DNA of 64,000 bases from an uncultured Ectothiorhodospiraceae bacterium (GTDB lineage Bacteria > Pseudomonadota > Gammaproteobacteria > Nevskiales > Oceanococcaceae): NCBI GenBank assembly GCA_937141935.1, contig CAKZQS010000052.1:62001-126000 (forward strand), read 5' to 3'. Below the pieces are notes generated by a model. It was given only the letters and a program-made list of their open reading frames with translations. It was not told the DNA's origin and ran no database searches. Shown here one piece after another: positions 37,388-52,613 of this stretch. The position numbers were made by a program, and so were the translations under genes. Numbering within the stretch: position 1 is the first letter of the stretch; the number at the start of each line of letters is the position of its first letter.

Positions 37388-38353
37388 TTGATCAATCAAT
37401 CCCACAGTATAGACAAGGCCGCCGGCGAGATTGCTTGCGCGGTTGGCGAAGATCAGGCCGGACGCCGTCTGGACCAGGTGCTGGCCGCGCATGCCTCGCA
37501 GTTCAGCCGCACCCGTCTGCAGGCCTGGATCCGTGCCGGGCACCTGCAGCTGGATGGCGCGGTGTGCACCCAGCCGCGCACGGCCGTGGAGGCCGGGCAG
37601 CAGCTCCGCCTGCGCCTGCCGGACGAGGCGCGCACGCAGCAGCGCGATGCCCCGCCGCCGCCCGCGCAGGCCGAGGACATTCCGTTGCAGATCGTGCACG
37701 AGGATGCCGACCTGCTGGTCATCAACAAGCCGGCCGGGCTGACCGTGCACCCCGGCGCCGGCCAGGCCCGCGGCACCTTGCAGAACGCGCTGCTGCACCA
37801 CCGCCCCGCGCTGGAGGCGCTGCCGCGCGCCGGCATCGTGCACCGGCTGGATAAGCTGACCTCCGGCCTCCTGGTCGTCGCGGCCCACCTCGAGGCGCAC
37901 ACGGCGCTGGTGCGCGCCCTGGCCGCACGCGAGGTGCATCGCGAGTACCTGGCGCTGGTCTGGGGCGAGGTCATTGCCGGGGGCACCATCGAGGCGCCGC
38001 TGGGCCGCGACCCGCGCGATCGCCGCCGCTACGTCGTCAGCCAGGGGGGGCGCGACGCGATCAGCCACTATCGCGTGGAGCGGCGCTATGCGCGGCATAC
38101 ACTGCTGCGCGTTCAGCTGGAGACCGGGCGCACGCACCAGATTCGGGTGCACATGCAGCACCGGCGCTGGCCGCTGGTCGGCGACCCGGTCTACGGCCGG
38201 CGCGGCGACCCGCTGCGCGCGCAGCTGCCGCGGCAGGCGCTGCATGCCACCGCGCTGGGCTTCGTACACCCCGGCGATGGCCGCGACTGCCGCTTTGAGG
38301 CGCCCCTGCCCGCGGACATCGCCAAGCTGCTGAAGAGCCTCCCGGCCGCCTGA
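37388..38353 (+). CDS. rluD: 23S rRNA pseudouridine synthase RluD
   Basis: RluD makes pseudouridines 1911, 1915 and 1917 in 23S rRNA helix 69. The 321-residue protein has an S4 domain (RLDQVLAAHASQFSRTRLQAWIRAGHLQLDG) and the catalytic motif GIVHRLDKLTSGLLVVA with the active Asp, plus the RTHQIRVHMQHRRWPLVGDPVYG element. The N-terminus before RLDQ aligns in length with E. coli RluD only if translation starts at TTG 37388; no ATG or GTG is available. It starts 3 bases from the bamD GTG on the other strand. pgeF follows with a TGATG join. Confidence 0.93.
   Translation: MINQSHSIDKAAGEIACAVGEDQAGRRLDQVLAAHASQFSRTRLQAWIRAGHLQLDGAVCTQPRTAVEAGQQLRLRLPDEARTQQRDAPPPPAQAEDIPLQIVHEDADLLVINKPAGLTVHPGAGQARGTLQNALLHHRPALEALPRAGIVHRLDKLTSGLLVVAAHLEAHTALVRALAAREVHREYLALVWGEVIAGGTIEAPLGRDPRDRRRYVVSQGGRDAISHYRVERRYARHTLLRVQLETGRTHQIRVHMQHRRWPLVGDPVYGRRGDPLRAQLPRQALHATALGFVHPGDGRDCRFEAPLPADIAKLLKSLPAA
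37406..37413. promoter_or_regulatory. Overlapping divergent -10-like boxes for bamD and rluD
   Basis: On minus, TATACT (37411 down to 37406) is a good -10 box placed to start bamD RNA near 37400. On plus, TATAGA at 37408-37413 overlaps it but lies inside the rluD reading frame, downstream of its TTG, so rluD must use another promoter or another start. Neither has a convincing -35. Confidence 0.4.
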
Positions 38354-39105
38354 TGAGCGAGGTCATCGAGCTCGGCGTGCCGGGCGTGCAGGCGCGCCTG
38401 AGCACCCGAACCGGTGGCCACAGCTCTGGCCCCTGGGCCGGCGCCAATCAGGGCCGGCTCAGCGGCGATGCCTGGCCGCTGGTTGCCGCCAACCGCGCCT
38501 GGCTGGCGCGGCGGGCCGGGCTGCCGGCGCCGGCGCAGTACCTGGCGCAGGTGCATGGCAGCGAGATCATCGAGTGGGCCGCGCGCCGCCGCTTCGTGGC
38601 CGGTGAGCCGCGCGCCGATGCCCAGCACACCGAGCGGCCGAATTACCCGCTGGCCGTGCTGGCGGCCGACTGCCTGCCCGTGCTGCTGTGCGATGCGCGC
38701 GGCGAACGGGTGGCCGCGGCGCACGCCGGCTGGCGCGGTCTGGCCGCCGGCATCCTGCCCCGCTTGTTGCGCGAGTTGCGCGCGCTGCTGCCGGCGGGCC
38801 GGGGCCTGCACGCCTGGGTCGGCCCGGCCATCGGCCCCTGCCATTTCGCGGTGGGCCCCGAGGTCGCGCGCGCCTTCGGCCCGGCGTATGCGGCCGCCTT
38901 TCGGCGCGACGAGGCGGGGCAGCTATATGGCGACCTGCCGGGCATTGCGGCGGCGCAGCTCTCTGCCGCGGGGGTGCAAACCCGCGTCGATGGGCGTTGC
39001 ACCCACTGCCGGCCCGAGCAGTTTTACTCGCACCGCCGTGAGGCCCCTTGTGGGCGCATGGCGGCGGTGATCTGGCGCGAGGGCCACAGCCGCGAAAGTT
39101 GCTGA
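38353..39105 (+). CDS. pgeF: Purine nucleoside phosphorylase/ polyphenol-oxidase-like protein PgeF (YfiH)
   Basis: YfiH/PgeF-family proteins (DUF152) act on purine nucleosides and have been reported to correct peptidoglycan misincorporation. The 250-residue protein has the zinc ligands QVHG, AADCLPVLL and AAHAGWRGLAAG, with the RTGGHSSGPW start region, and the end CTHCRPEQFYSHRREAPCGRMAAVIW. All catalytic-site residues look intact. The ATG at 38353 overlaps the rluD stop (TGATG), the conserved rluD-yfiH pairing. Older annotations call it laccase domain protein. Confidence 0.92.
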   Translation: MSEVIELGVPGVQARLSTRTGGHSSGPWAGANQGRLSGDAWPLVAANRAWLARRAGLPAPAQYLAQVHGSEIIEWAARRRFVAGEPRADAQHTERPNYPLAVLAADCLPVLLCDARGERVAAAHAGWRGLAAGILPRLLRELRALLPAGRGLHAWVGPAIGPCHFAVGPEVARAFGPAYAAAFRRDEAGQLYGDLPGIAAAQLSAAGVQTRVDGRCTHCRPEQFYSHRREAPCGRMAAVIWREGHSRESC

Positions 39106-39205: not shown

Positions 39206-41575
39206 GTGGCGAAAATCTTGCCGCGGATTTCAGCCGCCGCCGTTTGCGTGGCCGCAGCGATGCCGGCCCAGGCGCTGGAATTTTCGATTGGGGACGTCTA
39301 TGGGTCGGTCATCAGCTTCTTCACCGTGGGCGCGACGATGCGCATGGAAGAACGCGATGAGGACCTGATCGCCAAAATCAATCTCGACCCGGGTTTGTGC
39401 ACGCGCACCAACTGGACCACCGAGGGTTACCGCTCGACGCCGGAGCCGGTCTACCCCGGCGCGCAGGGCGACGACATCGGCAGCACCTGTAACGGTACCC
39501 AGGATCCGAACCTGAACCGCCGCTATGTCGATGCGCCGGGCAGCTTCAACATCAACGGCGACAACGGCAACATGAACTTCGAGCAGTACGACATCGTGTC
39601 GGCCGCGGCGAAGCTCAATACCAAGATCGACGTCTCCTGGAAGGGCTTCAACCTTTTCGGCCGCGGCATCTGGTTCTTCAACGAAACGCTGGTCAACTTC
39701 GACGAGACGCGTTTCGACACCACGCTGCAGCCGGAAACCCTGGCCCTGCCCGATGAGGTCGAGACCCAGTTCGGCAACGACTTCCTGTTGCAGGATCTGT
39801 ACGTGTCGACCTTCGTGCCGATCGGCGATCGCACGCTGTCGATCCGCGTCGGCCGCCAGGGTCTGAACTGGGGCGAGTCCACGGCGCTGCCGCTGAACTC
39901 GATCAACACGATCAACCCGCCCGACCAGCGCTTGGCGCGCATGCCGGGCTTCGATCTGGCCGAACTGTTCCGCCCCGTCGGCATGGCCGTGTTCGGCCTG
40001 GACCTGACGCTGAACCTGTCGATGGAGGCCTTCTACCAGTACGAGTGGGTGCCGGCCGAGATCGACGCCCCGGGCACCTTCTACTCGACCTCCGACGTCT
40101 TTGGCGGCACGGATGAGGACGGCAATTACGCGATGCTGTCTTTCGGCAAGGCGCCGGAAGACCCCTACGGTCTGTACGAATCGCAAGACAACCCCGAAGA
40201 TCCCTTCTCGCTGGGTTCGGCGGGCAGCCGCACGATCTACCGCGTCAAGGATCGCGAGCCGGATGACGGCGGCCAGTACGGTATCGCGCTGCGTTACTTC
40301 GCCGAAAACTTCAACAACGGCACCGAGTTCGCCTTCTACTTCGCGAACTACCACAACCGCCTGCCGTCGGCGAGCTTCTTCGCCGCGGACAAGACCTGCG
40401 CCGATACCGGTCCCAACGGCCCCGCGAAGAACACGCTGGAGCTGGCGATCAACTGTGGCGCCGGCCAGGGCGATATCGGCACGCTGCAACTGGCCGAGGA
40501 GCCGCTGCCGGTCGACACGGCGCAGCTTTTTGTCGAATACGCCGAAGACATCCAGATGTACGGCGTGTCCTTCAACACGACAATCGGCAACTGGGCCTGG
40601 TCCGGCGAGTACAGCTTCCGTCCGAAGATGCCGATCCAGGTGCACTCGGTCGACCTGGTCTTCGCCTCGCTGCAGCCGGCCTTTCCGACCAACAACATCA
40701 ACCTGACGGACCTGGACCTGACCACCAGCCTGCCGATCAGCGACCCGGGCCTGCTGGCGGCGCTGACCGACGCCGTGGCGCCGATCCTGTCCGGGGCGGG
40801 GCGCGAACAGATCGTGTTGCCGGGGCGGCGCATGGCCGTGCCCGACTACGTCGAGACGATCTACCGCAACAACCCCTACGACCCGGAAGACGAGTCGCGG
40901 CCGGATAACTACTACATCCGCGGCTACGAGCGCCTGCCGCTGGGCCAGCTGACCACCACCTTCCTGAACACCATCGGTGGTGACAACCCGCTGAAGGCCT
41001 CGCAGATCATCGTGATCGCCGAGGCCGGCCTGACCCACGTGCTGGACTTCCCGGATCTCAGCCGGCTGCAGTTCCAGGGTGCGGAGACCAACACGCACGC
41101 CTCCGCCGGTGCCGATGGCACGCAGAACTCGATCGAGGACAGCGCCGCGCAGACCGACGCGCTGGACACCGAGGGCAATGGTGACGAGGAGTGCGCGCGC
41201 CGCGTGTACGACGGCGGCGCCTTCTACGACCCCTACGAGGCCGAGCCCTGCCGGCAGAACCCGACCGCTCAGGACCCGGACAACTTCGGCGACGAGATCT
41301 CCTACGGCGTGCGCTTCATCAGCCTGATCCGCTACCAGGATTTCATGTTCGGCGTGAACTTCGAGCCGCTGATCGGCGTGTTCTACGACATCTCGGGCGT
41401 GGCCCCGGGTATCGGCCAGAACTTCTCCGAAGGCAACGTCACCGGCCTGTTCGGCCTGCGCTTTGACTACCTGTCGAAGTGGTTCACCGAGCTGCGCTAC
41501 ACCTACGTCGACGGCGAGGACAACGCGCGCCGCGACCGGGATACGTTAGCCTTCACACTGCGCTACGAATTTTGA
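39206..41575 (+). CDS. DUF1302 family outer-membrane protein
   Basis: The 789-residue product has a signal peptide (MAKILPRISAAAVCVAAAMPAQA) and then LEFSIGDVYGSVISFFTVGATMRMEER, the typical start of DUF1302 proteins, predicted outer-membrane beta-barrels. It has many alternating aromatic strands and ends in DTLAFTLRYEF, with the C-terminal Phe of outer-membrane barrels. Translation from GTG 39206 is supported by AGGGAG at 39193-39198. DUF1302 proteins recur beside YCF48-like and MMPL genes in bacteria that use hydrophobic compounds. It is the first gene of that trio here. A DUF1329 partner, often found too, is not in the window. Confidence 0.85.
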   Translation: MAKILPRISAAAVCVAAAMPAQALEFSIGDVYGSVISFFTVGATMRMEERDEDLIAKINLDPGLCTRTNWTTEGYRSTPEPVYPGAQGDDIGSTCNGTQDPNLNRRYVDAPGSFNINGDNGNMNFEQYDIVSAAAKLNTKIDVSWKGFNLFGRGIWFFNETLVNFDETRFDTTLQPETLALPDEVETQFGNDFLLQDLYVSTFVPIGDRTLSIRVGRQGLNWGESTALPLNSINTINPPDQRLARMPGFDLAELFRPVGMAVFGLDLTLNLSMEAFYQYEWVPAEIDAPGTFYSTSDVFGGTDEDGNYAMLSFGKAPEDPYGLYESQDNPEDPFSLGSAGSRTIYRVKDREPDDGGQYGIALRYFAENFNNGTEFAFYFANYHNRLPSASFFAADKTCADTGPNGPAKNTLELAINCGAGQGDIGTLQLAEEPLPVDTAQLFVEYAEDIQMYGVSFNTTIGNWAWSGEYSFRPKMPIQVHSVDLVFASLQPAFPTNNINLTDLDLTTSLPISDPGLLAALTDAVAPILSGAGREQIVLPGRRMAVPDYVETIYRNNPYDPEDESRPDNYYIRGYERLPLGQLTTTFLNTIGGDNPLKASQIIVIAEAGLTHVLDFPDLSRLQFQGAETNTHASAGADGTQNSIEDSAAQTDALDTEGNGDEECARRVYDGGAFYDPYEAEPCRQNPTAQDPDNFGDEISYGVRFISLIRYQDFMFGVNFEPLIGVFYDISGVAPGIGQNFSEGNVTGLFGLRFDYLSKWFTELRYTYVDGEDNARRDRDTLAFTLRYEF

Positions 41576-41580
41576 TTCGG

Positions 41581-41605
41581 GGCCGGCGCCTTGGGGGCGC
41601 CGGCC
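41581..41605 (+). promoter_or_regulatory. Perfect 10-bp hairpin between DUF1302 and YCF48 genes
   Basis: GGCCGGCGCC at 41581-41590 pairs with GGCGCCGGCC at 41596-41605 across TTGGG, 5 bases after the DUF1302 stop. There is no T-run. It is probably an mRNA-stabilising or partial-termination element that lets the barrel gene be made in excess over the downstream genes. Confidence 0.6.
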
Positions 41606-41637
41606 ACCGCACAACTCGCGACGGGGAGACAGGGACG

Positions 41638-42603
41638 ATGAACAAGCGCCTGGGGTTCTTTGCGGCATTGATGCCGGCAGCGGCGCTCGCCGTGGGCATA
41701 AGCAGCGAAATCTCGCCGCAACCGGCGGAGATGATGCCGCTGGCCGACGAGTCGGTCGTGCTCGATGTGACCGACACCGGCAAGCGCCTCGTCGCCGTCG
41801 GTGAACGCGGCCACATCCTGGTGTCGCTGGACGGCGAGACCTGGGTGCAGGCGCCAACACCGGTGCGCGCCTACCTGACCGCGGTGGATTTTGCCGACGA
41901 CAACAACGGCATGGCGGTCGGCCACGACTCCACCATCCTGCGCACCCGGGACGGCGGGCGCAGCTGGATCGTGCAGAACTTCGAGCCCGTTGTGGATCCG
42001 GAGGTCGAGAGCGACGAGCCCTTCCTCGACGTGCTGATGCTGGACACGCGTCGCGCCTGGGCCGTCGGGGCCTACGGCAAGCTCTATCGCACCGACAACG
42101 GCGGCGAGACCTGGGAGGACTTCGAGGATCCGATCCGCGAGGACGCCTGGCACTTCAACTCGATCACCCGGCTGAACAACGGCGACCTGTTCCTGGCCGG
42201 CGAGTCCGGCACGCTGGCCGTGTCCAGCGACAACGGCGACTCCTGGGAGGCCATCGAGTCGCCCTATTCCAGCACGCTCTTCGATGCGGCCGCCGTGGGG
42301 CCCGAGGGGGTGCTGATTGTCGGCTTGCGCGGCAACGCCTATTACACCGCCGACCCGCGCGGCGGCGAGTGGTCCAAGCTCGAAACCGGCGTCGAGGATT
42401 CGCTGATCGGTGCCGAACAGCTGGCCAACGGCGAGGCGATCATGGTCGGCATCAACGGCATCATCCTGCGCACCCGCGCGGCGCTGAGCCATGTCGAGCG
42501 CATCGACAACCCGCAGGGCATCACGCTGGCTGCCGTACAGCCGCTCAAGAACGCCCTCGTCGTGGTCGGCAATGCCGGCCCGCAATTGATCGCAAACCCT
42601 TAA
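41638..42603 (+). CDS. YCF48-like periplasmic beta-propeller protein
   Basis: The 321-residue protein has an N-terminal signal sequence (LGFFAALMPAAALAVG) and a seven-bladed-propeller-like repeat pattern with Asp-box motifs SLDGETWVQ, TRDGGRSWIVQ, TDNGGETWEDF and SSDNGDSWEAI. These match the YCF48/photosystem II assembly factor-like family, used in non-photosynthetic bacteria as periplasmic partners. AGGGAC precedes the ATG at 41638. It lies between the barrel gene and the RND pump gene, so it may be a periplasmic link between them; that is inference. No membrane-fusion-protein gene is present. Confidence 0.85.
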   Translation: MNKRLGFFAALMPAAALAVGISSEISPQPAEMMPLADESVVLDVTDTGKRLVAVGERGHILVSLDGETWVQAPTPVRAYLTAVDFADDNNGMAVGHDSTILRTRDGGRSWIVQNFEPVVDPEVESDEPFLDVLMLDTRRAWAVGAYGKLYRTDNGGETWEDFEDPIREDAWHFNSITRLNNGDLFLAGESGTLAVSSDNGDSWEAIESPYSSTLFDAAAVGPEGVLIVGLRGNAYYTADPRGGEWSKLETGVEDSLIGAEQLANGEAIMVGINGIILRTRAALSHVERIDNPQGITLAAVQPLKNALVVVGNAGPQLIANP

Positions 42604-42618
42604 GCGGAGCCGACCGGC

Positions 42619-45201
42619 ATGGCCAACACCCCGAACAAGAAGACCTGGACGGACCGCATCCTCGCCGTCATCGAACCGCTGGTGTACGGCCAGCGGATGC
42701 TGATGCTGGGCATCCTGATCGCGCTCACCGTGTTTTTCGGCTGGCAGGCCTCGCAAACGCGGGTCGACGCCGGCTTCGAGAAATCGATTCCGCTCGAACA
42801 CCCCTACATGAAGACGCTGAAGCAGTATCAGCAGGACTTCGGGGGCGGCAACACGGTGCTGGTGGCGCTGATCCAGGAGGACGGCGACATCTACAACGAG
42901 GAGTTTCTCTCCACGTTGAAGAATGTCACCGACGAGGTCTTCTTCCTGGAAGGGGTCGACCGTTCGCGAGTGTCCTCGCTGTTCACGCCGGATGTGCGTT
43001 TCACCGAGGTGGTCGAAGGCGGCTTCGCGGGCGGCAACGTGATCCCGGCCGAGTACGCGCCCAACGAGGAGATGTTTGACCTGGTGCGGGCCAACGTCGG
43101 CAAGGCCGGCATCATCGGCCGCTACGTCACCACCGAGCAGAACGGTGCGATGGTCTTCGCCGAACTGCTGGAAACCGACCCGGTCACTGGCGAAAAGCTG
43201 GACTACCGCGTGGTCGCCGACAAGCTCGAGGAGATCCGCCAGCAGTTCGAAACCGAGGACGTCAAGGTCCACATCGTCGGTTTTGCCAAGGTCATTGGCG
43301 ACGTCACCGACGCGGCGCTGGAAGTGGTCTTCTTCTTCATCCTGGCGCTGCTGATGACGGCCGCGCTGCTGTGGATCTATACCGCGTCCTTCAAGCTGTC
43401 GATGGTGGTGCTGGTCTGCTCGCTGGTCGCGGTGATCTGGGAGTTCGGCCTGCTCACGTCGGTGGGCTACGGGCTGGATCCCTTCGCGATCCTGATCCCC
43501 TTCCTGGTGTTATCAGTTTCGACCAGTCACGGCGTGCAGTACGTGAACGCCTGGGTCGGCGAGGTGGACAAGGGCGCCGAGCCCTTCGAGGCCTCGCTGG
43601 AGACCTTCCGCCGCCTGGCCATCCCCGGCACCACGGCGCTGATCACCGACACCGCCGGTTTCGCGACGATCTACCTGATCCCGATCGACATAATCCGCGA
43701 GATGGCCGTCAACGCCGCCTTCGGCATGCTGGCCATCATCGTCACCAACAAGGTGCTGGCGCCGATCTGGCTGACCTATGTGCGGATCGACAACATCGAG
43801 GAGTTCCGCAAGAAGCAGCTCAAGCGCGAGGAAATGGGCGATGGCCTGTGGCGCTTCATTGCCAAGATCTCGCGCCCCGTGCCAGCCGCCATCACGCTGC
43901 TGATCTCCGCGGTGCTGCTCGGCTGGTCGCTGTACAAGTACGCGGACCTGCAGGTGGGCGACTCGCAAGAGGGCGTGCCGGAGCTGCGGCCCGACTCGCG
44001 CTACAACCAGGACTCGCGCGCCATCGTCAACAACTTCGCGATTGGCGTGGACATCCTCAAGGTGATCGCCGAGGCGCCACCCGAATCCTGTATCGAATAT
44101 CCGATCATGGAGGAGATCGACCGCTTCGCCTGGCGGATGGATAACACCGAGGGCGTCAGTTCGACGATCTCGCTGCCGCAGGTGGCCAAGATCGTCAACG
44201 GTCAGTTCAACGAGGGCACGCCGAACATGGCCGTGCTGCCGCGGAACAAATACGTGATGGTGCAGGCCATCACGCCGATCCCGACCTCATCGGGCCTGCT
44301 GAACCCCAACTGTTCGGCGATGGCCGTGCTGATCTTCACCGAGGATCACCGCGCCGAGACCATCAAGCGCATCGTCAACGAGGTCAAGAAGTTCAACCAG
44401 GAGAGCGACGCGGCCTTCTTCGCCCGCCCGGACATCGAGGTCACGCCGGAGTACTGCGCCGAGAAACGCAGCCTGCGCGACAAGTCCTGGGAGGCGCGCC
44501 GCGATGCGGATCTGCTGCAGACCCGTGCCGAAGAGGTCGGCGATGTGTCCGAGGAACGCCTCGAGCAGGTGCAGGCCCGGGCGGACGAGCTGACCGACAA
44601 GCACGAGGCCATGGACCAGCGCTGCCCCATCGACTTCGCGCTGGCCACCGGCAACGTGGGGGTCATGGCCGCCACCAACGAGGTGGTGAAGGAGAAGGAA
44701 CTGGAGGTCGTCGGCTACGTCTACGTCGTCATCGTCATCTTCATGTTCCTGTCCTTCCGCACCATGTGCGGCGTGCTTTGCGTGGTGCTGCCGCTGTCGC
44801 TGGTCTCGGCGATGGCCTATGCCGTGATGGCGGTGCTGGGTATCGGCCTGAAGGTTGCCACGCTGCCGGTGGTGGCGCTGGCCGTGGGCATCGGTGTCGA
44901 CTACGGCATCTACATCTACTCCACGCTGATCGACGGGCTGGGCCGCGGACGGACGCTGGAGGAGGCCTTCTATGACACGCTGCACAAGACCGGCAAGGCG
45001 GTGATCTTCACCGGCATTGCGCTGGGTGGCTCGGTGTCGACCTGGCTGCTCTCCGACCTGCAGTTCCAGGCCGACATGGGCATCCTGCTGGTGTTCATGT
45101 TCACCGCGAACATGTTCGGCGCCATCCTGGTCATGCCGGCGCTGGCCCGCTTCCTGGTCCAGCACCGCTACCACCGCGAGCAAGCCGGCGAGGCCAGCTA
45201 G
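42619..45201 (+). CDS. RND-superfamily MMPL-type transporter
   Basis: The 860-residue protein has the RND layout: TM1 at about residues 26-45, a periplasmic loop to ~232, TM2-TM6 to ~400, TM7 at ~424-440, a second loop with coiled coil (near 620-660), and five closing spans from ~693. It matches the MMPL class, exporters of lipids, hopanoids or hydrophobic compounds. Each half carries the sterol-sensing-like membrane region (FLVLSVSTSHGVQYVNAW; VALAVGIGVDYGIYIYS, with the proton-relay-like Asp). GCGGAG precedes the ATG. It follows the YCF48 gene by 15 bases. Confidence 0.9.
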   Translation: MANTPNKKTWTDRILAVIEPLVYGQRMLMLGILIALTVFFGWQASQTRVDAGFEKSIPLEHPYMKTLKQYQQDFGGGNTVLVALIQEDGDIYNEEFLSTLKNVTDEVFFLEGVDRSRVSSLFTPDVRFTEVVEGGFAGGNVIPAEYAPNEEMFDLVRANVGKAGIIGRYVTTEQNGAMVFAELLETDPVTGEKLDYRVVADKLEEIRQQFETEDVKVHIVGFAKVIGDVTDAALEVVFFFILALLMTAALLWIYTASFKLSMVVLVCSLVAVIWEFGLLTSVGYGLDPFAILIPFLVLSVSTSHGVQYVNAWVGEVDKGAEPFEASLETFRRLAIPGTTALITDTAGFATIYLIPIDIIREMAVNAAFGMLAIIVTNKVLAPIWLTYVRIDNIEEFRKKQLKREEMGDGLWRFIAKISRPVPAAITLLISAVLLGWSLYKYADLQVGDSQEGVPELRPDSRYNQDSRAIVNNFAIGVDILKVIAEAPPESCIEYPIMEEIDRFAWRMDNTEGVSSTISLPQVAKIVNGQFNEGTPNMAVLPRNKYVMVQAITPIPTSSGLLNPNCSAMAVLIFTEDHRAETIKRIVNEVKKFNQESDAAFFARPDIEVTPEYCAEKRSLRDKSWEARRDADLLQTRAEEVGDVSEERLEQVQARADELTDKHEAMDQRCPIDFALATGNVGVMAATNEVVKEKELEVVGYVYVVIVIFMFLSFRTMCGVLCVVLPLSLVSAMAYAVMAVLGIGLKVATLPVVALAVGIGVDYGIYIYSTLIDGLGRGRTLEEAFYDTLHKTGKAVIFTGIALGGSVSTWLLSDLQFQADMGILLVFMFTANMFGAILVMPALARFLVQHRYHREQAGEAS

Positions 45202-45229: not shown

Positions 45230-45258
45230 GTCCCGGCCGGCTGACCGCCGGCCGGGAC
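45230..45258. terminator. 12-bp GC hairpin between MMPL and apaH
   Basis: GTCCCGGCCGGC at 45230-45241 pairs perfectly with GCCGGCCGGGAC at 45247-45258 across TGACC. It lies where the MMPL and apaH transcripts converge and overlaps the apaH stop region by one base. There is no T-run on either side, so termination may depend on Rho. Confidence 0.6.
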
Positions 45259-46082
45259 TAGCCAGGCTGCTGGTGCGCGGGACAGGGACGGCTGTAGATT
45301 CGCCGCTCGGGCCAGCGCAGCGCGCTCAGCCGACCACCCCAGACGCAGCCGCTATCCAGGCCCCAGACGCCGTGCTCCGGCCAGTACACGCGCCCCAGCG
45401 TGGACCAATGGCCGAAGGCGATCTGCAGTGCGCGATTGCGCCGCTGCGGGTGGGCGAACCAGGGCCACAGCGCGCGCGTCTTGGCGCCCGCGCCGATGCC
45501 CTCTTTGGATTCGAGTTCGAGCCGCCCCTGCGCGTCGACATAGCGCATGCGCGTCAAGACATTGACGGCATAGCGAAAGCGCGCGGCGCCGGAGAGCTGC
45601 GGCGTCCACAGATCCGGCTCGTCGCCATACATCTGCGCCAGCGCCGGCAGCGCCTCCGCGCCGCGCAGCGTTGCGGCCACGCATGCGGCCTCCTGCCGAG
45701 CCACGTCGGCGGTCCACTGCGGCGCCAGGCCCGCGTGCACCATCGTCAGACCCTGGGCCTCGACCAGCAGCGGCTGGGCCTGCAGCCAGTCGAGCAGCGC
45801 GCCGGCATCGGTCGCGCCGAGCAGCTCGCGTGCCGTGGCTCCCAGCTTCGGGACGGCCCGCCGCGCCTGCGCCAGCACGGCGAGGTCGTGGTTGCCCAGC
45901 ACGCAGCGCAGCGGCCCCCGCCAGGCGCGCAGGCGGCGTAGCATGCCCAGCGAGTCGGGTCCGCGGTTGATCAGGTCGCCGCAGATCCACAGCTCGTCGC
46001 GTGGGCCCGGCGCCAGGCTCTCGAGCAGGGCCTCGAAGTCCGGGCGGCAACCCTGCAGGTCGCCCAGTACATAGAGGCTCAT
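45258..46082 (-). CDS. apaH: Symmetrical bis(5'-nucleosyl)-tetraphosphatase ApaH
   Basis: ApaH splits Ap4A to two ADP and also decaps Np4-capped RNA. The 274-residue protein has the PPP-phosphatase motifs GDLQGC, GDLINRGPDS, GNHD, and the later MVHAGLAP and FGHWSTLG. The ATG at 46082 is chosen as the family N-terminus MSLYVLGDLQG; an upstream TTG would add non-conserved residues. In many gammaproteobacteria apaH ends the lptD-surA-pdxA-rsmA-apaG-apaH operon. Here it keeps the same strand but lies about 12.8 kb away, beyond the Tad locus, and apaG is absent. Confidence 0.96.
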   Translation of the reverse strand: MSLYVLGDLQGCRPDFEALLESLAPGPRDELWICGDLINRGPDSLGMLRRLRAWRGPLRCVLGNHDLAVLAQARRAVPKLGATARELLGATDAGALLDWLQAQPLLVEAQGLTMVHAGLAPQWTADVARQEAACVAATLRGAEALPALAQMYGDEPDLWTPQLSGAARFRYAVNVLTRMRYVDAQGRLELESKEGIGAGAKTRALWPWFAHPQRRNRALQIAFGHWSTLGRVYWPEHGVWGLDSGCVWGGRLSALRWPERRIYSRPCPAHQQPG

Positions 46083-46223
46083 CGGCCGCGAGGACCTGGC
46101 TTGCAAATGCCGCAGGGGCTCGGGATCATGAACTTGACGGCCTTTGACGAATTTTTGACATCGGGTTGCCGAGCATGGCGGTCCAAAGCCCGTAGTGGGC
46201 GATTACCGTTTGAGGAGAGTGCA

Positions 46224-46427
46224 ATGCACAGCCGCTTCGCAAGAATGTGGAAACCGGTCGCGCAGCGTCAACAGCGCGGTGCCACCGTCATCGAATACGC
46301 GCTGGTCGCCGCGCTGATCGCGATCGCCGTGGCCGCGGTCATGGGCCCGCTGGGTTCCGCGATTGGCGACAAGTTCGAGGAAGCCGAGACGACGATTACC
46401 GGCGGCGGTGGCGGCGGCGGCGAATAG
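46224..46427 (+). CDS. flp: Flp-type pilin (Tad system)
   Basis: The 67-residue prepilin has the Flp motif: QQRG/ATVIEYALVAALIAIAV, with cleavage after Gly and Glu-Tyr at +5/+6. The leader is long and basic (about 21 residues). The mature protein is short and ends in GGGGGGGE, an unusual all-glycine tail. GAGGAGAG precedes the ATG at 46224. It is the major subunit of the Tad pilus. Processing by PilD encoded at 16.9-17.8 kb is likely since the locus has no TadV gene. Confidence 0.92.
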   Translation: MHSRFARMWKPVAQRQQRGATVIEYALVAALIAIAVAAVMGPLGSAIGDKFEEAETTITGGGGGGGE

Positions 46428-46438
46428 GCCCCCCAGGC

Positions 46439-46945
46439 ATGAGCCCGATCGGCGGTAGCCGCGCCGCCCCCGAGCCTGCGCGCCCGTCGCGCCAGCGGGG
46501 CGCGACGGCCATGGAATTCGCGCTGATTTTCCCGCTGCTGTTCGCGCTGCTCTACGGCGTGGTCGTGTACTCCTATGTCTTCGTGCTGCAGGAGTCCATC
46601 ACCTATGCGGCGCAGCAGGCCGCGGCCAACGCCATCAGCGTTGACCCCGCCGTGGCCGGCGACGCCTATGTCGACACCGTGCGGACCCGCGTGCGCGCCG
46701 GCGCCCGCGCGGCGCTGGACTGGCTGCCCGAGGCGCAGCAGGAGCGCGTGCTGGGCAGCGGCGGCGAATCGGTGCAGGTCGATCTGGTCAGCGACCCGGC
46801 CGGGAGCCTGGTCGAGGTCCGCCTGCTGTTTGGCCTGGCCGGCATGTTCCCCGCGGTCAGCCTGCCCTATGTGGGCGAAATTCCACCACTGCCGGAGGCG
46901 CTGACCGCAACCGCGACCGTGCTGGTGGGGGAGTCGGGTTCCTGA
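46439..46945 (+). CDS. tadE: TadE-family pseudopilin
   Basis: The 168-residue protein has the TadE N-terminus RQRGATAMEFALIFPLLFALLYGVVVYSY with the Gly/Glu processing pattern, one membrane segment, and a periplasmic part rich in small residues. TadE pseudopilins support Flp pilus assembly or act as minor pilins. The ATG at 46439 is 11 bases after the flp stop. No TadF is seen next to it; tadG lies at the far end of the locus. Confidence 0.86.
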   Translation: MSPIGGSRAAPEPARPSRQRGATAMEFALIFPLLFALLYGVVVYSYVFVLQESITYAAQQAAANAISVDPAVAGDAYVDTVRTRVRAGARAALDWLPEAQQERVLGSGGESVQVDLVSDPAGSLVEVRLLFGLAGMFPAVSLPYVGEIPPLPEALTATATVLVGESGS

Positions 46946-47053
46946 GCCCGGACCATGCCGGCGGGCGCAATGCTATTGTGAGCGCTGCGCGTGGGGCCGC
47001 CCCGCGGCCTGGCGCCGGGGAGGCCGATTCCGCATGGCAGTGTTGAGGTCACA

Positions 47054-47953
47054 ATGAGTGGGTCGGGATTGAAATACGCCGCGCTGGCGGCTGTCGTACT
47101 CGCGGTGGTGCTGGGCGTGCTCGCCTGGCGCGCCACAATCCAGGCCACCGAGGCGGCCAAGCAGGAGGCGCTTGCCCAGGCGCGCGCCCAGCAGCCGGCA
47201 GCGCCCGAGCCGCAGGCTCTGGCCGTCGTCGCGCTGCGGCCCCTGGCGGCCAACCGCCCGGTTCCGGCGGAGGCGGTGGCCGTCAAGCCGCTGTCCGTGA
47301 CCCCCGATCGCTATTACACCGCCGTCGAGGACGTCGTGGGACGCGTGCCGTTGCTCGACGTCGACGCCGGGGCGCCCGTGACCCCGCGCTACTTCAAGGA
47401 ATCCAATGTCCTCGCGCGCCTGATCCCCGAGGGCCATCGCGCGCTGTCGCTGGAGGTCAGCGACGTTATCGCCGTCGGCGGCTTCGTGCGCCCGGGCGAT
47501 CGCGTGGACATGCTGCTGTACCTGCGCGACCAGCAACAACAGGCGCAGTCGCGCGTGCTGCTGCCCGATGCACTGGTGCTGGCCTATGAGGAACGCATCA
47601 TCGAGCGCCCCGAGGGCCTGGACGACGAGGGGCCCGGTCGCACCCAACGCGGCCGTTTGCGCACCGCGGTGGTCGCGGTGCCGGAGGACCAGCTGACCCG
47701 CGTCATGCTGGGCGCCAACGTGGGCGACCTGCGGCTGGCCCTGCGCCGGCAGGCCCCGGATCTGGCCGAGCGCGAAGGCACGCTGCCGGTGGGCGCGCCG
47801 AGCCCGACGCCGGCCGTGGCCGTCGAGCAACCCATCACCCTGGCCGAGCTGGCCCGGATCCCCACCCCCACACCCACGCGCGCGCCACGGCCGCAGGCCT
47901 ACACGGTCGACGTGTTCCGCGGCGGCGATGTCAGCCGGGAGGCCGCACGATGA
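47054..47953 (+). CDS. rcpC: Flp pilus assembly protein RcpC/CpaB
   Basis: The 299-residue protein has one N-terminal membrane span (LKYAALAAVVLAVVLGVLAWRA) and a SAF domain (VPAEAVAVKPLSVTPDRYYTAVEDVVGRVPLLDVDAGAPV), followed by the conserved RALSLEVSDVIAVGGFVRPGDRVDMLL of CpaB/RcpC. It supports the outer-membrane secretin and pilus stability. GAGG precedes the ATG at 47054. The 108-base gap after tadE is the only sizeable one in the early locus and may carry an internal promoter. Its stop overlaps rcpA. Confidence 0.92.
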   Translation: MSGSGLKYAALAAVVLAVVLGVLAWRATIQATEAAKQEALAQARAQQPAAPEPQALAVVALRPLAANRPVPAEAVAVKPLSVTPDRYYTAVEDVVGRVPLLDVDAGAPVTPRYFKESNVLARLIPEGHRALSLEVSDVIAVGGFVRPGDRVDMLLYLRDQQQQAQSRVLLPDALVLAYEERIIERPEGLDDEGPGRTQRGRLRTAVVAVPEDQLTRVMLGANVGDLRLALRRQAPDLAEREGTLPVGAPSPTPAVAVEQPITLAELARIPTPTPTRAPRPQAYTVDVFRGGDVSREAAR

Positions 47954-49284
47954 GGGCCCTGTTCCTATCCACGCTGCTGGCGCTGCTGTGCACGGTGCCG
48001 GCGCAGGCCGCCACGCCGCCGCCACCCGGCGGGGTGCTGACGGTTGAGGAGGGCACGCATCGCATTCTGCGCAGCAGCCGGGTCAAGCGCGTGGCTGTCG
48101 GCGACCCCGACGTCGCCGATGTCGATGTCGTCAGCGCCGGTGAGCTGCTGATCACCGGCAAGAGCCAGGGCGTGACCTCGCTGCTGGTCTGGCAGGCCAG
48201 CGGCGGTAGCACCGCGTACAAGCTGGTCGTCGTGCCGGTCGAGAATCCGCTGGAGCAGGCCCGTGACCCCGAGGTCGGGGCCGCGCGCATCGGCAAGGGC
48301 CGGCTGGATGGCCAGTTCAGTTCCCTGTCCGGCCACGCCCAGGCATTGGCCCGGGCTGGTGAGGACGCGCGTGACGACAGCGTGGTGACGCTGCCGGGCC
48401 AGGTGCTCACCGAAATCCGCATCGCCGAGATTTCGCGCAGCACGCTGCGCCAGTTCGGTTTCAATCTGCTGCTCAACCGCCTCGACGGCTCGGTGGCCGT
48501 CACCCGGCCGGGCACCCTCGGTGGCGCCTCGCTGGGCCCGCCGCCGAATGGCGAGAATCCCTTCACCTCGCCGGTGGTCTTCGAGTCCGACTCGGGCTTC
48601 CTGCCGCTGCGCAACGCCTTCAACATCGTGCTGGGCAATGCCAGCCGCAACGTGCTCGGCTTTTTGTCGCTGCTGGAGAACCAGGGCCTCGTGCGCACGC
48701 TCGCCGAGCCCTCGCTGGTGGCAACCAGCGGCCAGACGGCGAGCTTCCTGGCCGGCGGCGAATTCCCGGTGCCGGTCAGCCAGGGCGGCGCCAACGCCGG
48801 CATCTCCATCGAGTACAAGGAGTTCGGCGTGCGCCTGTCGCTGACGCCGACCGTGCTTGCCCGCGATCGCATCAGCCTGCGGGTGGCCCCCGAGGTCAGC
48901 GAGCTGGACTTCAGCGCCGGCGTGTCCATCGGCGGCACCTCGGTGCCGGCGCTGGCGGTGCGCCGTACGGACACGGTGATCGAGCTGGCCGACGGCGAAA
49001 GCTTTGTCGTCAGCGGCCTGGTCAGCCGCAACATGATGGCCAACGTCGACAAGGTGCCCTTCCTCGGCGAAATCCCGATTCTCGGCGCCTTCTTTCGCTC
49101 CAGTCGTTACGACCGTGAAGAGCGCGAACTGGTCATGGTGGTCACGCCGCACCTGGTCGACCCGATCCCGGCCGGGGCCGAGCAGCCCGAGCTGCCCGGC
49201 GCCGATTACGACGCCTACGACCCGGAGTTCGGCGAGCTGCTGTTCGAGGAGAAGGGCCGCTTCACGTCCGGGCTGAGCCGCTGA
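47950..49284 (+). CDS. rcpA: Tad secretin RcpA/CpaC
   Basis: RcpA is the outer-membrane secretin through which the Flp pilus exits. The 444-residue protein has a signal peptide (LFLSTLLALLCTVPAQA), an N-terminal BON-like/pilus-specific domain with VAVGDPDVADVDVV and LITGKSQGVTSLLVW, and a secretin C-domain with VPFLGEIPILGAFFRSSRYDR and ELVMVVTPHLVDP, the type II/III secretin signature. The ATG overlaps the rcpC stop. No separate pilotin is obvious, though tadD encodes a lipoprotein. Confidence 0.94.
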   Translation: MRALFLSTLLALLCTVPAQAATPPPPGGVLTVEEGTHRILRSSRVKRVAVGDPDVADVDVVSAGELLITGKSQGVTSLLVWQASGGSTAYKLVVVPVENPLEQARDPEVGAARIGKGRLDGQFSSLSGHAQALARAGEDARDDSVVTLPGQVLTEIRIAEISRSTLRQFGFNLLLNRLDGSVAVTRPGTLGGASLGPPPNGENPFTSPVVFESDSGFLPLRNAFNIVLGNASRNVLGFLSLLENQGLVRTLAEPSLVATSGQTASFLAGGEFPVPVSQGGANAGISIEYKEFGVRLSLTPTVLARDRISLRVAPEVSELDFSAGVSIGGTSVPALAVRRTDTVIELADGESFVVSGLVSRNMMANVDKVPFLGEIPILGAFFRSSRYDREERELVMVVTPHLVDPIPAGAEQPELPGADYDAYDPEFGELLFEEKGRFTSGLSR

Positions 49285-49286
49285 AC

Positions 49287-50474
49287 ATGCTCTCCGTTGC
49301 CCTGATTGCCAGCGATCCGCTGTACGCCAGCTGGCTCGCCGACGTGCTCGGCGAGGATTGCGAGCTGCATTGGCTGCGCCCCGATGACCCCGAGGACCCG
49401 GCCCTGGTGCAGCTGCAGCGGCTGGAGCCGCCGGATGCCGTGCTGGTCGAGCCCAATGCCACGCTGATCCGCGACGTCGCCAACGCAGGCGTCGCCCTGG
49501 TGGCCGCCGTGTCGATGGACAGCCCCGGCGATAACGCCATCACGCTGATCCGCTCCGGCGCCGCCGACCTCTTCGTGATGGGCCGTGACGATGGCGAGAT
49601 TCGCAGCCGTCTGGACACGCTGCTGCGGGCGCGCCTGCAGCAAGCGCTGCCCAACGAGCCCGGCAGCGGCCGCCGCCAGGCCGACCTGACGCTGCTGCTC
49701 GGCCCGGGCGGGCATGGCGACCTCAGCTTCTGCGCCGTGCACCTCGCGCTGGCCCTGCTGCAGGAGGTCGCGCCCGGCGAGCGCGTGCTGCTGCTGGACC
49801 TGGCCCTGCCATGCGGCTCGGCGCTGGTGCACCTGGACATGAGCCAGAGCTATTCGTTGCTGGACGCCGTCAACGACACCTACCGCTGCGATGCCAACCT
49901 GATCGACAGCGCCTTCGCCCGCCACGGCAGCGATGGCCTGTACCTGCTGACGTTGCCGGAAGACCAGATCGGCCCGCCGCCGGTCGGCGAGGTCGAGCTG
50001 GCCGCCTTGCTGCCGGTGTTGCGCGAGCATTTCCGCCATATCGTGCTGTGCAGCGGGCCGCATTGGCCCGCCAGCGTCTCGACCGCGCTGCTGCGCGAGG
50101 CCACCCATGCCGCCTTGGTCAGCGATGGCGGCATCGTCAGCTCGCGCGCCACGCGGGCCTTCCTGCAGGCGCTGCGGCAGGAGGATGTCGCGCTGTCCGG
50201 CCTGGGTCTGATCTGCGACTCGGCGCGTGGCGTGCAGGCGCTGGATGCGCCCAACCTGGCGCGGCTCCTGGAGCTGCCGCTGTGGGAGGATTTGCGCGGC
50301 AGCCCGCAGATGCGGGCCAAGGCCGTCAATCGCGGCGAGCCCCTGTTTCAGGTGGCGCCGCGCGACGCCACAGCGCGCAGCCTGCAATCGCTGGCCCTGC
50401 GCCTGCACCGCGGCGTGGCGCCGCAGCAGGAGGCGCCGGCCCAGGGTTTCTGGGGTCGCCTGATCGGCGCCTGA
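49287..50474 (+). CDS. tadZ: TadZ/CpaE-like ATPase-fold localisation protein
   Basis: TadZ proteins position the Tad machinery at the pole. The 395-residue product has an N-terminal receiver-like domain (residues 1 to ~115) and a ParA/MinD-like domain (LTLLLGPGGHGDLSFCAVHLA, VLLLDLALPCGSALVHLD). The Walker A reads GPGGHGDLS and lacks both lysines of a deviant Walker A, so ATP hydrolysis is doubtful. Degenerate P-loops occur among TadZ proteins. It lies 2 bases after rcpA and 10 before tadA. Confidence 0.88.
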   Translation: MLSVALIASDPLYASWLADVLGEDCELHWLRPDDPEDPALVQLQRLEPPDAVLVEPNATLIRDVANAGVALVAAVSMDSPGDNAITLIRSGAADLFVMGRDDGEIRSRLDTLLRARLQQALPNEPGSGRRQADLTLLLGPGGHGDLSFCAVHLALALLQEVAPGERVLLLDLALPCGSALVHLDMSQSYSLLDAVNDTYRCDANLIDSAFARHGSDGLYLLTLPEDQIGPPPVGEVELAALLPVLREHFRHIVLCSGPHWPASVSTALLREATHAALVSDGGIVSSRATRAFLQALRQEDVALSGLGLICDSARGVQALDAPNLARLLELPLWEDLRGSPQMRAKAVNRGEPLFQVAPRDATARSLQSLALRLHRGVAPQQEAPAQGFWGRLIGA

Positions 50475-50484
50475 GGCATCGCGC

Positions 50485-51702
50485 GTGGCCGAACTGATCA
50501 CCGCCTCGGGCTCGCGGCCACAGCGCGCCAGCGCCCAGTACCTGCGGCACAAGGCCCAGCTGCATCGCGCGCTGATCGCGCGGCTCGAGGCCGACAACCT
50601 CAGCATTGACGACTGGAGCGAGGCGCGCCTGCGGCAGTGGATTGCGCAGCAAACCCAGACCCTGGTCGCCCGCGAACGGCTGGCCGTCAACGCCAGCGAG
50701 CTGCGCCAGCTGGGCGAGGACATCCTGCATGAGCTGGTCGGCTTCGGCCCGCTGCAGCCATTGATCGAGGACCCCGAGATCGACGACATCGTCGTCAACG
50801 GGCCGCGCAGCGTGTTCGTCGAGCGCCGCGGCCGGCTCGAAGAGGCGGCGACGCAGTTCGTCGACGACGATCATGTGCTGCGGATCATCCGCCGCATCCT
50901 GGCGCCGATTGGCCGCCGCATCGACGAAAGCACGCCGATGGTCGACGCCCGCCTGCCCGACGGCAGCCGGGTCAATGCGGTCATCGCGCCGGTGGCGCTG
51001 GACGGGCCCAGCCTGTCGGTGCGCAAGTTCCGCGCGCAGCCGCTGACCGCCCAGGAGCTGGTGCGCAATGGGGCCATGAGCCAGGAGCTGGCCGACTACC
51101 TGCGCGAGCAGGTGCAGGCGCGCGCCAGCATTGTCGTGGTGGGCGGCACCGGCACCGGCAAGACTACGGTGCTGAACATGCTCTCGCGCTGGATCGCCGA
51201 GGCCGAGCGCATCATCACCATTGAGGACGCCGCCGAGCTGCGCCTGGAGCACCCGCATGTGGTGCGTCTGGAAACGCGCCCGCCCAACTTGGAGGGCGCC
51301 GGCGAAATCAGCGCCCGCGACCTGGTGCGCAACGCCTTGCGTATGCGCCCCGACCGCATCGTGCTGGGCGAGGTGCGCTCGCACGAGGTGCTGGACATGT
51401 TGCAGGCGATGAACACCGGGCATGAGGGCTCGATGACCACGCTGCATGCCAACTCGCCGCGCGACGCGATTCACCGCCTGGAGCTGCTGGCCGGTTTCGC
51501 CGGTTTCGCCGGCGACACGGCCAATTTGCACCGGCAGATCGCCTCGGCAGTGGACCTGCTGGTGCATCTGCAGCGCTTCGCCGATGGCCGCCGCCGCCTT
51601 GGCGGGGTCAGCCGGGTCGAACTCGATGGCGAGCGCATCGCGCTGCGCGAGATTTTTAGTCTCGACGCCGATGGCGTGCAAACGCAGGACCAACGCGCAT
51701 GA
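50485..51702 (+). CDS. tadA: Tad pilus assembly ATPase TadA/CpaF
   Basis: TadA powers assembly, and in some systems retraction, of the Flp pilus. The 405-residue protein has a short N-terminal all-helical region, the N2 domain with LIEDPEIDDIVVNGP, Walker A VVGGTGTGKTTVLNML, the Asp box ITIEDAAELRL, Walker B RIVLGEVRSHEV, and the His box MTTLHANSPRDA. All catalytic motifs are intact. The GTG at 50485 follows GAGG after the tadZ stop. tadB overlaps its end. Confidence 0.96.
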   Translation: MAELITASGSRPQRASAQYLRHKAQLHRALIARLEADNLSIDDWSEARLRQWIAQQTQTLVARERLAVNASELRQLGEDILHELVGFGPLQPLIEDPEIDDIVVNGPRSVFVERRGRLEEAATQFVDDDHVLRIIRRILAPIGRRIDESTPMVDARLPDGSRVNAVIAPVALDGPSLSVRKFRAQPLTAQELVRNGAMSQELADYLREQVQARASIVVVGGTGTGKTTVLNMLSRWIAEAERIITIEDAAELRLEHPHVVRLETRPPNLEGAGEISARDLVRNALRMRPDRIVLGEVRSHEVLDMLQAMNTGHEGSMTTLHANSPRDAIHRLELLAGFAGFAGDTANLHRQIASAVDLLVHLQRFADGRRRLGGVSRVELDGERIALREIFSLDADGVQTQDQRA

Positions 51703-52613
51703 TGCTGGTGCTGCTGTTTGCGATGACGCTGCTGCTGCTGGCGGCCGCCGGCCTGCTGTGGTGGCGTGCGCGCGAGCTGGGCCGCGAGCAGGCCTTTTAC
51801 CTGGGTCGGCGCGCGGGCCGCGGCGGCGTGGTGCAGGGCGGGCGACCCCAGCCGGACGTGCTCAATCGCATGCTGCAGGGCTTCGTGCTGCGCGCGGGCA
51901 TCGATGCCGAGCACCTGCCGCGCTGGTTCGCCCCGGCGCTGGGTCTGGCGCTGCTCGGCGTGCTGCTGCTGGCGCTGAGCTTCGGGCTGGTGCTGGGCCT
52001 GTTGGCGCTGCTGCTGCTGGCGCTGGCCGTGTTTATCTGGACGCTGGCGCGGGAGTCCTCGCGCCAGCACAAGATGCGTGAGCAGCTGCCGGGCTTCTTG
52101 GAGCACATGATGCGCGTGCTCAACGCCGGCAATTCGCTGGAAGAGGCGCTGGCCGCCGCCACCGCGGACTGCCCCGAGCCGCTGGGCAACATCTTTCGCC
52201 GGGTGTCGCGCCAGGTCCGGCTCGGCGCCGCCGTCGACGAAACCCTGACCGAAGTCGCCGAGCTTTCCGGCCTGAAGGAGCTGCAGGTCATGGCGCTGGC
52301 CACGCGCATCAACCGGCGCTTCGGCGGCAGCCTCAAGCGCATCTTCCGCAGTCTGGTCGCCGCGATCCACCAGCAGGATGCGGCGCGCCGCGAAATGCGC
52401 GCGCTGACGGCGGAGACGCGGGTTTCGGCCGTGGTGCTCGCGGCGGTGCCGGTGCTGATGATGCTGTACATCCTGTCGCAGAACCCCGAGTACTACGCGC
52501 AGATGTGGAGCGACCCCCTGGGCCGCGGCTTCATCTTCGGCGCCGCCCTGTTGCAGCTGGCCGGCGTGGGCATCATCTGGCGCATGCTGGCGCGCGCGGG
52601 GCAGGAGGCATGA
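51699..52613 (+). CDS. tadB: Tad inner-membrane platform protein TadB
   Basis: The 304-residue protein has three to four membrane spans (about residues 4-22, 88-125, 250-270, 280-300) and a T2SS-F domain with QLPGFLEHMMRVLNAGNSLEEAL. TadB and TadC form the platform on which TadA acts, equivalent to PilC in the other pilus system. The ATG at 51699 overlaps the tadA stop and the stop overlaps the tadC ATG. Order tadA-tadB-tadC is canonical. Confidence 0.93.
   Translation: MMLVLLFAMTLLLLAAAGLLWWRARELGREQAFYLGRRAGRGGVVQGGRPQPDVLNRMLQGFVLRAGIDAEHLPRWFAPALGLALLGVLLLALSFGLVLGLLALLLLALAVFIWTLARESSRQHKMREQLPGFLEHMMRVLNAGNSLEEALAAATADCPEPLGNIFRRVSRQVRLGAAVDETLTEVAELSGLKELQVMALATRINRRFGGSLKRIFRSLVAAIHQQDAARREMRALTAETRVSAVVLAAVPVLMMLYILSQNPEYYAQMWSDPLGRGFIFGAALLQLAGVGIIWRMLARAGQEA

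Follow-up and report, generated by a model that had tools for sequence, protein, structure and literature searches.

A DUF1302, beta-propeller and RND gene trio in an Oceanococcaceae genome as a probable reduced variant of a four-part AmeABCD-like system

How many parts make up a predicted envelope transporter, and which of them have to be encoded side by side? The question is raised by a 64,000-nucleotide stretch of DNA (the window) from an uncultured Ectothiorhodospiraceae bacterium of the GTDB family Oceanococcaceae (assembly GCA_937141935.1, contig CAKZQS010000052.1, positions 62,001 to 126,000), which carries three adjacent, co-directional genes on the + strand: a DUF1302 protein (here A, 39206..41575), a YCF48-like beta-propeller (C, 41638..42603) and an inner-membrane RND protein of HAE3/MMPL type (D, 42619..45201). 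A sequence-only reading of the window had placed the trio at these positions, which the list of open reading frames (ORFs) bears out, and had taken it for a three-part transporter with the propeller as a possible periplasmic link. The letter B is kept for DUF1329. Neither DUF1302 nor DUF1329 has a known function; both families have many copies per genome in this order and are met in the proteomes of hydrocarbon users.

Comparison across genomes points to the trio as a reduced variant of a known, poorly understood four-part system, of which the A-C-D form of the window is a minority form. The system is that of Castellaniella defragrans, where ameABCD encodes a DUF1302 protein, a DUF1329 protein of the LolA superfamily, a photosystem II assembly-like protein of COG4447 and an HAE3-type RND protein; deletion of the four genes lowers monoterpene tolerance and raises the net influx of Nile Red in cells treated with carbonyl cyanide m-chlorophenylhydrazone (CCCP), an ameB insertion cited in the same paper impairs growth, and the authors place every member of the AmeD lineage in a four-gene cassette whose order is conserved (PMC6394551). 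The sequence-only reading had known of no established mechanism for such sets, which still stands for the mechanism but not for the set itself, and the link to hydrophobic compounds that it expected is in print for AmeABCD (PMC6394551). The likeness, drawn by family and not by sequence, consists of a DUF1302 protein, a YCF48/COG4447-type protein and an RND protein, in the window one with HAE3 as its nearest model, in one run and in a hydrophobic-compound setting. The differences are the absence of an AmeB (DUF1329) gene at the window locus, the position of the trio beside housekeeping-type genes instead of in a catabolic island, and an extra Cys-bearing helical hairpin in D. We give a probability of roughly 0.58 to the reading in which the three genes encode a pared-down trans-envelope system of the AmeABCD kind that moves hydrophobic, probably acyl- or hydrocarbon-like, compounds inward with B supplied in trans.

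The three proteins were assigned by profile. A, of AmeA type, matches PF06980 with E 1.5e-141 over residues 26-809 of the longest ORF (profile positions 3-541 of 541); its start is a GTG at 39206, placed there by eye from a purine-rich stretch before the start and a signal-peptide-like N-terminus. C, of AmeC type and 321 amino acids long, has an ATG start at 41638 and a signal peptide (both by eye), and matches PF14870 with E 9.8e-19 and, in a profile comparison, the solved Ycf48-like protein 2xbg with E 2.1e-31. D, of AmeD type and 860 amino acids long, matches PF03176 with E 5.4e-18; its top NCBIfam model, HAE3 TIGR00921 (E 4.9e-35), scores 120.7 bits where the curated cut-off is 351.9. The MMPL class given by the sequence-only reading is supported in so far as HAE3/MMPL models are the nearest to D. 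Among named relatives D is most similar (84%) to the protein of Oceanococcus sp. BWSM_70 (L029). The gaps between the genes are short (62 bases from A to C and 15 from C to D). There is no DUF1329 match anywhere in the window, and none between A and C, as had been supposed. A Pfam scan of the trio and nine neighbouring proteins found no membrane-fusion protein or TolC-type channel among them. A tripartite pump of the HAE1 kind was considered and set aside, there being no partner gene among those neighbours. As regards an operon partner of MmpS type, at which no search was aimed, the direct neighbours of D are the YCF48-like protein and a metallophosphoesterase.

Chance neighbourhood is ruled out by the distribution of the four families over the class, a test that the sequence-only reading had set for itself beforehand. 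In a sample of 185 genomes drawn evenly from the class, and with cut-offs chosen after the score gap had been viewed (at least 300 bits for A and B, at least 150 bits for C, E <= 1e-50 for D), the 24 genomes with C are also the 24 with D (Fisher 1e-30, a figure that takes no account of kinship), and A and B likewise share one set of 27 genomes, all 24 of the former included; D is found in 21 of the 176 genera in the sample. Looser search thresholds extend A to 50, B to 80 and C (E <= 1e-10) to 36 of the 185 genomes, the extra matches being mostly weak, and two genomes (G120 and G008) give intermediate B scores of 225-238 bits.

The same sample also speaks to the number of parts. When neighbours within 9 kb of D on either strand are counted, 25 of the 31 D loci in the class have A, B, C and D together, and the others are ACD (two loci, both in the window's genus), BCD, BD, CD and D alone (one each). 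Nineteen of the 25 complete loci are co-directional in the order A-B-C-D, two have A divergent, two are otherwise ordered (G025:C4 and G091) and two are mutual neighbours in G150; the first of the otherwise ordered pair, the third cassette of its genome (L193, G025:C4:119000-131500), is shuffled to D-B-A-C. In G162 AB and CD lie on separate contigs, in addition to one ABCD locus. A three-part unit is accordingly rejected as the general form, and the trio is better described as a locus from which B is missing, with eight near-complete copies elsewhere in the genome. The sequence-only interpretation was right in kind, wrong in the number of parts and probably wrong about the role of the propeller.

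The site itself can be followed from genome to genome by means of the PgeF/YfiH-type gene directly upstream (38353..39105, + strand, PF02578 with E 5.2e-63). By "slot" we mean the stretch after this gene that holds the trio; handles beginning with G denote genomes, and those with f and g families and genera. The PgeF-type gene was located in 81 of the 85 genomes of the order, and 80 stretches after it were read besides the window; leaving out those of G196, G241 and G213, which are incomplete, there are 78 readable slots. They are in the states CD (24), empty (22, of which 15 belong to family f2), ACD (15), BCD (8), ABCD (8) and AACD (1). C is followed directly by D in all 56 occupied slots, and A is present in 24 of them and B in 16, which suggests that C-D is a constant core from which A and B are separable. 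The ACD state is no rare accident, since it is found at 15 of the 78 sites (with AACD at one more) and in six genera, and all four genomes of the window's family f1 (the window's own, G025, G249 and G250) have it. On a FastTree phylogeny of the 56 slot D proteins A changed at least five times and B at least four times, against means of 18.2 and 14.1 for shuffled labels, and states vary within genera g186, g188 and g190. Forty named loci, which overlap the slot set, show the same states, for example ACD in Oceanococcus, ABCD in Abyssibacter, BCD in Solimonas and CD in Hydrocarboniphaga. To judge from these gene orders, the cassette rule reported for AmeD-lineage pumps fails for the putatively related D proteins of this order. 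Neither the ACD form nor the slot series was found in a literature search that covered few subscription journals.

Outside family f2, D is present in 67 of 68 genomes of the order, and the slot is empty in seven. In family f2 D and B are jointly absent from 16 of 17 genomes, three of which (G254, G262 and G265) have one DUF1302.

Where, then, is DUF1329? The genome of the window has eight near-complete DUF1329 genes and one fragment, all outside the window; one near-complete copy lies on the window's contig some 70 kb beyond the window's end and the other seven are on other contigs. Throughout the order B goes with D: every one of the 68 genomes with D has B as well (E <= 1e-50), the 40 with no B in the slot among them, and at the same threshold the 17 genomes without D have no B. 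The ten slot DUF1329s used, which come from families f168 and f169, group in a single clade (support 99/96, or 97/91 with eleven rows from named loci added); the slot therefore probably held B in the common ancestor of these two families, transfer being the alternative. Three of the window genome's own copies (C52:196306, C42:149070 and C15:16766) join this slot clade (99/97; 93/91 in a second tree, in which a single Abyssibacter copy lies closer). Each of the three also has one DUF1329 partner copy in G025, the genus's second genome, with support of 100/100 in every case.

Copy numbers differ among the parts. The window's genome has five A, eight B, two C and three D genes, and G025 has seven, nine, three and three. 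One of the window genome's other loci, C29, is a full A-B-C-D set with A divergent, its D being 59% identical to that of the window, and C24 has an A copy 63% identical to the window's A and placed inside the slot clade. At C19 (L070:4387-9628) a hydrolase-like gene, D and B form one run, the only one of the genome's three AmeD-like loci without a propeller; the hydrolase match is weak (Pfam E 0.0018, under the cut-off, and phmmer E 0.00066 to the hydrolase Ple628). At C28 (L068:5804-9770) A directly follows the gene of an alpha/beta-hydrolase whose lipase N-terminal match falls just short of the cut-off. The hydrolase neighbours at C19 and C28 would fit ester-bound acyl compounds as substrate.

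A comparable division of the parts over the genome is seen in Pseudomonas putida, in which PP_0765 (DUF1302), PP_0766 (DUF1329), PP_2018 (a periplasmic protein) and PP_2019 (an efflux transporter) show one and the same growth phenotype on Tween 20; co-folding gave strong contact between PP_2018 and PP_2019 and weak contact of PP_0766 with PP_2019 and with PP_0765, although a figure legend calls a 0765-0766 complex highly likely (PMC10866462). That PP_2018 and PP_2019 correspond to C and D is our own reading, which the accessible text of that paper does not state. As in the genome of the window, the parts are encoded apart (in P. putida far apart by locus number, and with one phenotype), but the split in P. 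putida runs between A-B and the other two, whereas in the window A, C and D are neighbours and B lies elsewhere. The so-called nanopod clusters offer further likenesses: a benzene-degrading consortium (ORM2a) expresses a set of DUF1329, YCF48-related and MMPL proteins, with no DUF1302 named in the accessible text (PMC13101534), and adjacently numbered DUF1302 and DUF1329 proteins, DelCs14_1756 and DelCs14_1757, occur in the vesicle-bearing nanopods of Delftia Cs1-4 (PMC3110197). They differ in that the trio form is not reported in the accessible text of either paper, and their function is likewise unproven.

Folds were predicted for A and D. The AlphaFold2 model of A (19 sequences, pLDDT 76, pTM 0.80) is an OprD/OccK-like barrel ending in a C-terminal Phe. 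The Foldseek rows had query TM-scores of 0.21-0.32 and left large loops unaligned, and we relied instead on a second-look alignment, limited to the chains that Foldseek had ranked; its top match is OccK9/OpdG (4ft6), with Z 23.2 and a root-mean-square deviation (rmsd) of 3.5 over 318 residues, in a tie with other OccK/OprD-type and BenF-like porins, and the alginate exporter AlgE follows at Z 21.5. OccK/OprD/BenF-type porins are uptake channels. A search of the DUF1302 profile against the sequences of solved structures gave none at E <= 1. The predicted fold of DUF1302 is thus an OprD/OccK-like barrel, and the prediction of an outer-membrane barrel, on whose failure the sequence-only reading would have fallen, holds because the model matches porins of this type. 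An outer-membrane location is supported by the predicted fold, the C-terminal Phe and published localisations of DUF1302 proteins, namely that in Delftia and the listing of PA3923 with the outer-membrane proteins of P. aeruginosa (PMC6890786). The model of D (35 sequences, pLDDT 80, pTM 0.75) matches Patched (Z 41.9, rmsd 6.1 over 714 residues), AcrB (41.7, 6.4 over 589) and MmpL3 (40.8, 3.9 over 654), and NPC1 is also among its matches.

On the reading that we prefer, D would be a proton-driven inner-membrane engine with C as its constant periplasmic subunit, A would be the outer-membrane port, and B, absent from the locus in the window's family, would act as a LolA-superfamily carrier between pump and barrel, most likely supplied in trans by one of the copies at C52:196306, C42:149070 and C15:16766; hydrophobic nutrients would then move inward. 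The DUF1329/LolA-superfamily protein is the likelier carrier, and the propeller, which stays with the pump in all 56 occupied slots, the less likely periplasmic link. Complex formation, trans supply, the carrier role of B, energy coupling, substrate and direction are all, as put forward here, presumed.

The direction in particular has to be weighed, inward movement being only slightly more likely than efflux. Removal of toxic hydrophobic compounds, or export of lipid from the inner membrane to the surface, is a reading to which we allow a real chance, though one well short of even; it agrees with the usual exporting role of RND proteins and with the likeness of A to AlgE. It is also how the authors of AmeABCD read their system, for which the effects of the deletion on monoterpene tolerance and Nile Red influx speak (PMC6394551). 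We lean to import because the barrel ranks nearest the OccK/OprD-type porins, because A and B genes outnumber C and D genes, which looks like many receptors on few engines, and because P. putida requires PP_0765 and PP_0766 to grow on Tween 20 (PMC10866462). The cargo, too, could be of another kind: the slot system might move the cell's own lipids, in the manner of hopanoid or sterol transporters, for which speak its place beside housekeeping-type genes, the near-constancy of D in the order outside family f2 and the structural matches of D to Patched and NPC1. Such envelope maintenance is nevertheless unlikely, given the absence of D from nearly all of family f2 and the seven slots that are empty elsewhere. 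The lipid-carrying RND proteins HpnN and BstA resemble D in fold; their curated models, which D misses by far, also speak against this reading and led us to reject both as its identity (for the hopanoid transporter HpnN 66.3 of 751.85 bits with TIGR03480 and 23.7 of 1100 with NF052374, and for the sterol transporter BstA 19.9 of 1400 with NF045600). Less probable still is a self-sufficient three-part machine in which barrel, propeller link and pump dispense with DUF1329: the recurrence of ACD in six genera speaks for it, yet DUF1329 is in every genome of the order that has D, the 24 sites without either A or B show that a part missing from the site need not be missing from the machine, and the pairing of propeller and pump is independent of A.

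Several observations weigh against the trimmed AmeABCD-like importer, beyond the efflux reading of AmeABCD by its authors. The trio itself might work without B, and D scores under the curated HAE3 cut-off. C19 of the window's genome, with D and B and no C, and G112:C12, with D alone, are exceptions to a need for all four parts. A is present in 70 of the 85 genomes of the order, and among the 32 slots that lack it there is a single genome, G200, that holds D, C and B but no A anywhere at E <= 1e-50. In genus g188 the slot D proteins of the ABCD and BCD genomes sit on two distant branches of the tree, so D may have been exchanged within the slot, the change counts are rough and the slots do not form a simple vertical series. 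(The loci on the two branches are L135, L143, L171 and L181, and L126, L130, L136, L137, L138 and L162; six g188 slot DUF1329s were placed together in one tree group in spite of the split.)

The last of these difficulties concerns the pump. His304 and Asp761, assumed from RND proteins in general to be the proton carriers, are both absent from the slot D proteins of six genomes of genus g184, all in the CD state: G199 (L119), G200 (L159), G202 (L133), G203 (L117), G205 (L108) and G206 (L116). All other slot D proteins keep them (His304 in 50 of 50, Asp761 in each of the 49 that have a residue at its position), and there was no alignment gap at either position in the rows inspected, which were those six and five others. 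The frames are open in all six and all six keep C. By a simple count dN/dS is 0.22 to 0.34 for pairs among G199, G203, G205 and G206 and 0.59 for G202-G203, against 0.02 to 0.14 for three pairs that bear the residues; selection on the five measured proteins is thus weaker but present, as the ratios are raised yet below 1. The six may possibly be non-pumping MMPL proteins, and since they keep C the C-D pair may have a role beyond pumping. An attempt to place the residues of transmembrane helix 4 by aligning the two halves of D to each other was unusable (hhalign probability 1.4).

The other distinctive element of D is an insertion in its second periplasmic domain (PD2), residues 603-671 (44425..44631, + strand), predicted as a helical hairpin (610-640 and 645-664) with Cys613 and Cys669 close to its base. 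In an alignment of 35 D proteins the insertion runs to 30 to 75 residues in 29, every one of which has both cysteines, and the pair is missing from the six with 0 to 8 residues at this place; Cys491 and Cys565 are in all 35. Among the slot D proteins 46 of 56 have at least 40 residues there, again all with the pair, and in a looser window six of the ten with a shorter insertion have Cys near both places. The pattern suggests a Cys613-Cys669 disulfide. A link between the hairpin and the presence of DUF1329 was looked for and not found: the window, G025, G249 and G250 are all ACD, and within family f1 the hairpin is confined to one slot D of the four, that of the window (the C29 paralogue of the window's genome has one too). 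MmpL5 of the mycobacterial MmpS5-MmpL5 system likewise has a helical PD2 insertion bearing a Cys pair, and the resemblance is one of analogy; there the insertion is of 196 residues with a disulfide at the tip (PMC12501195), against some 70 residues with the pair near the base in D, which does not qualify as an MmpL5-like coiled-coil RND protein.

The surroundings of the trio can be described briefly. Outside the transporter, the upstream anchors of the slot are an RluD-type pseudouridine synthase (37388..38353, + strand, PF00849 and PF01479) and the PgeF-type gene, and the convergent downstream anchor is an ApaH-like metallophosphoesterase (45258..46106, - strand, PF00149); the names RluD, PgeF and ApaH are those we take to apply to these neighbours. 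Beyond the ApaH-like gene lies a Flp/Tad pilus gene run at 46247-52613, with RcpC, secretin and ATPase by Pfam and its extent by eye. A promoter scan gave no promoter-like sites and five terminator-like ones (shuffle mean 2.9), which is uninformative, and a tRNA scan of the window gave none. Elsewhere, the run at G000:C47 (L075:994-10871) comprises LolA-like, MMPL, DUF3450, two ExbB-like, ExbD, TonB and long DUF1329 genes; its MMPL protein ends in a cyclic-nucleotide-binding domain and also has a sterol-sensing match, its DUF1329 protein has a sub-threshold TPR match, and the run as a whole makes another type of DUF1329/MMPL set, one with a TonB engine. At G000:C31 (L074:3903-10464) a DUF1329 gene lies within a pyruvate dehydrogenase run, with the E2 gene on one side and the lipoyl-E3 gene on the other, and at G000:C11 (L069:6820-9384) a DUF1302 gene is directly downstream of a ribosomal-protein and RNA-polymerase-alpha-like run (labels by eye).

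More tentatively, and rather on the doubtful side, the propeller-MMPL pair could be a shared engine for which DUF1302 and DUF1329 proteins from anywhere in the genome serve as interchangeable front ends; having outlived the loss of the membrane residues in six genomes of one genus, the pair would then also have a role that does not need them. If true, this would be an economy like that of many TonB receptors on one TonB complex. What the natural series at one locus (ABCD, ACD, BCD, CD and none) shows is which parts are separable and which are never seen apart, and it turns a vague "envelope transporter" into direct questions: whether C and D bind each other, whether a DUF1329 encoded elsewhere serves the locus, and which front end sets the substrate.

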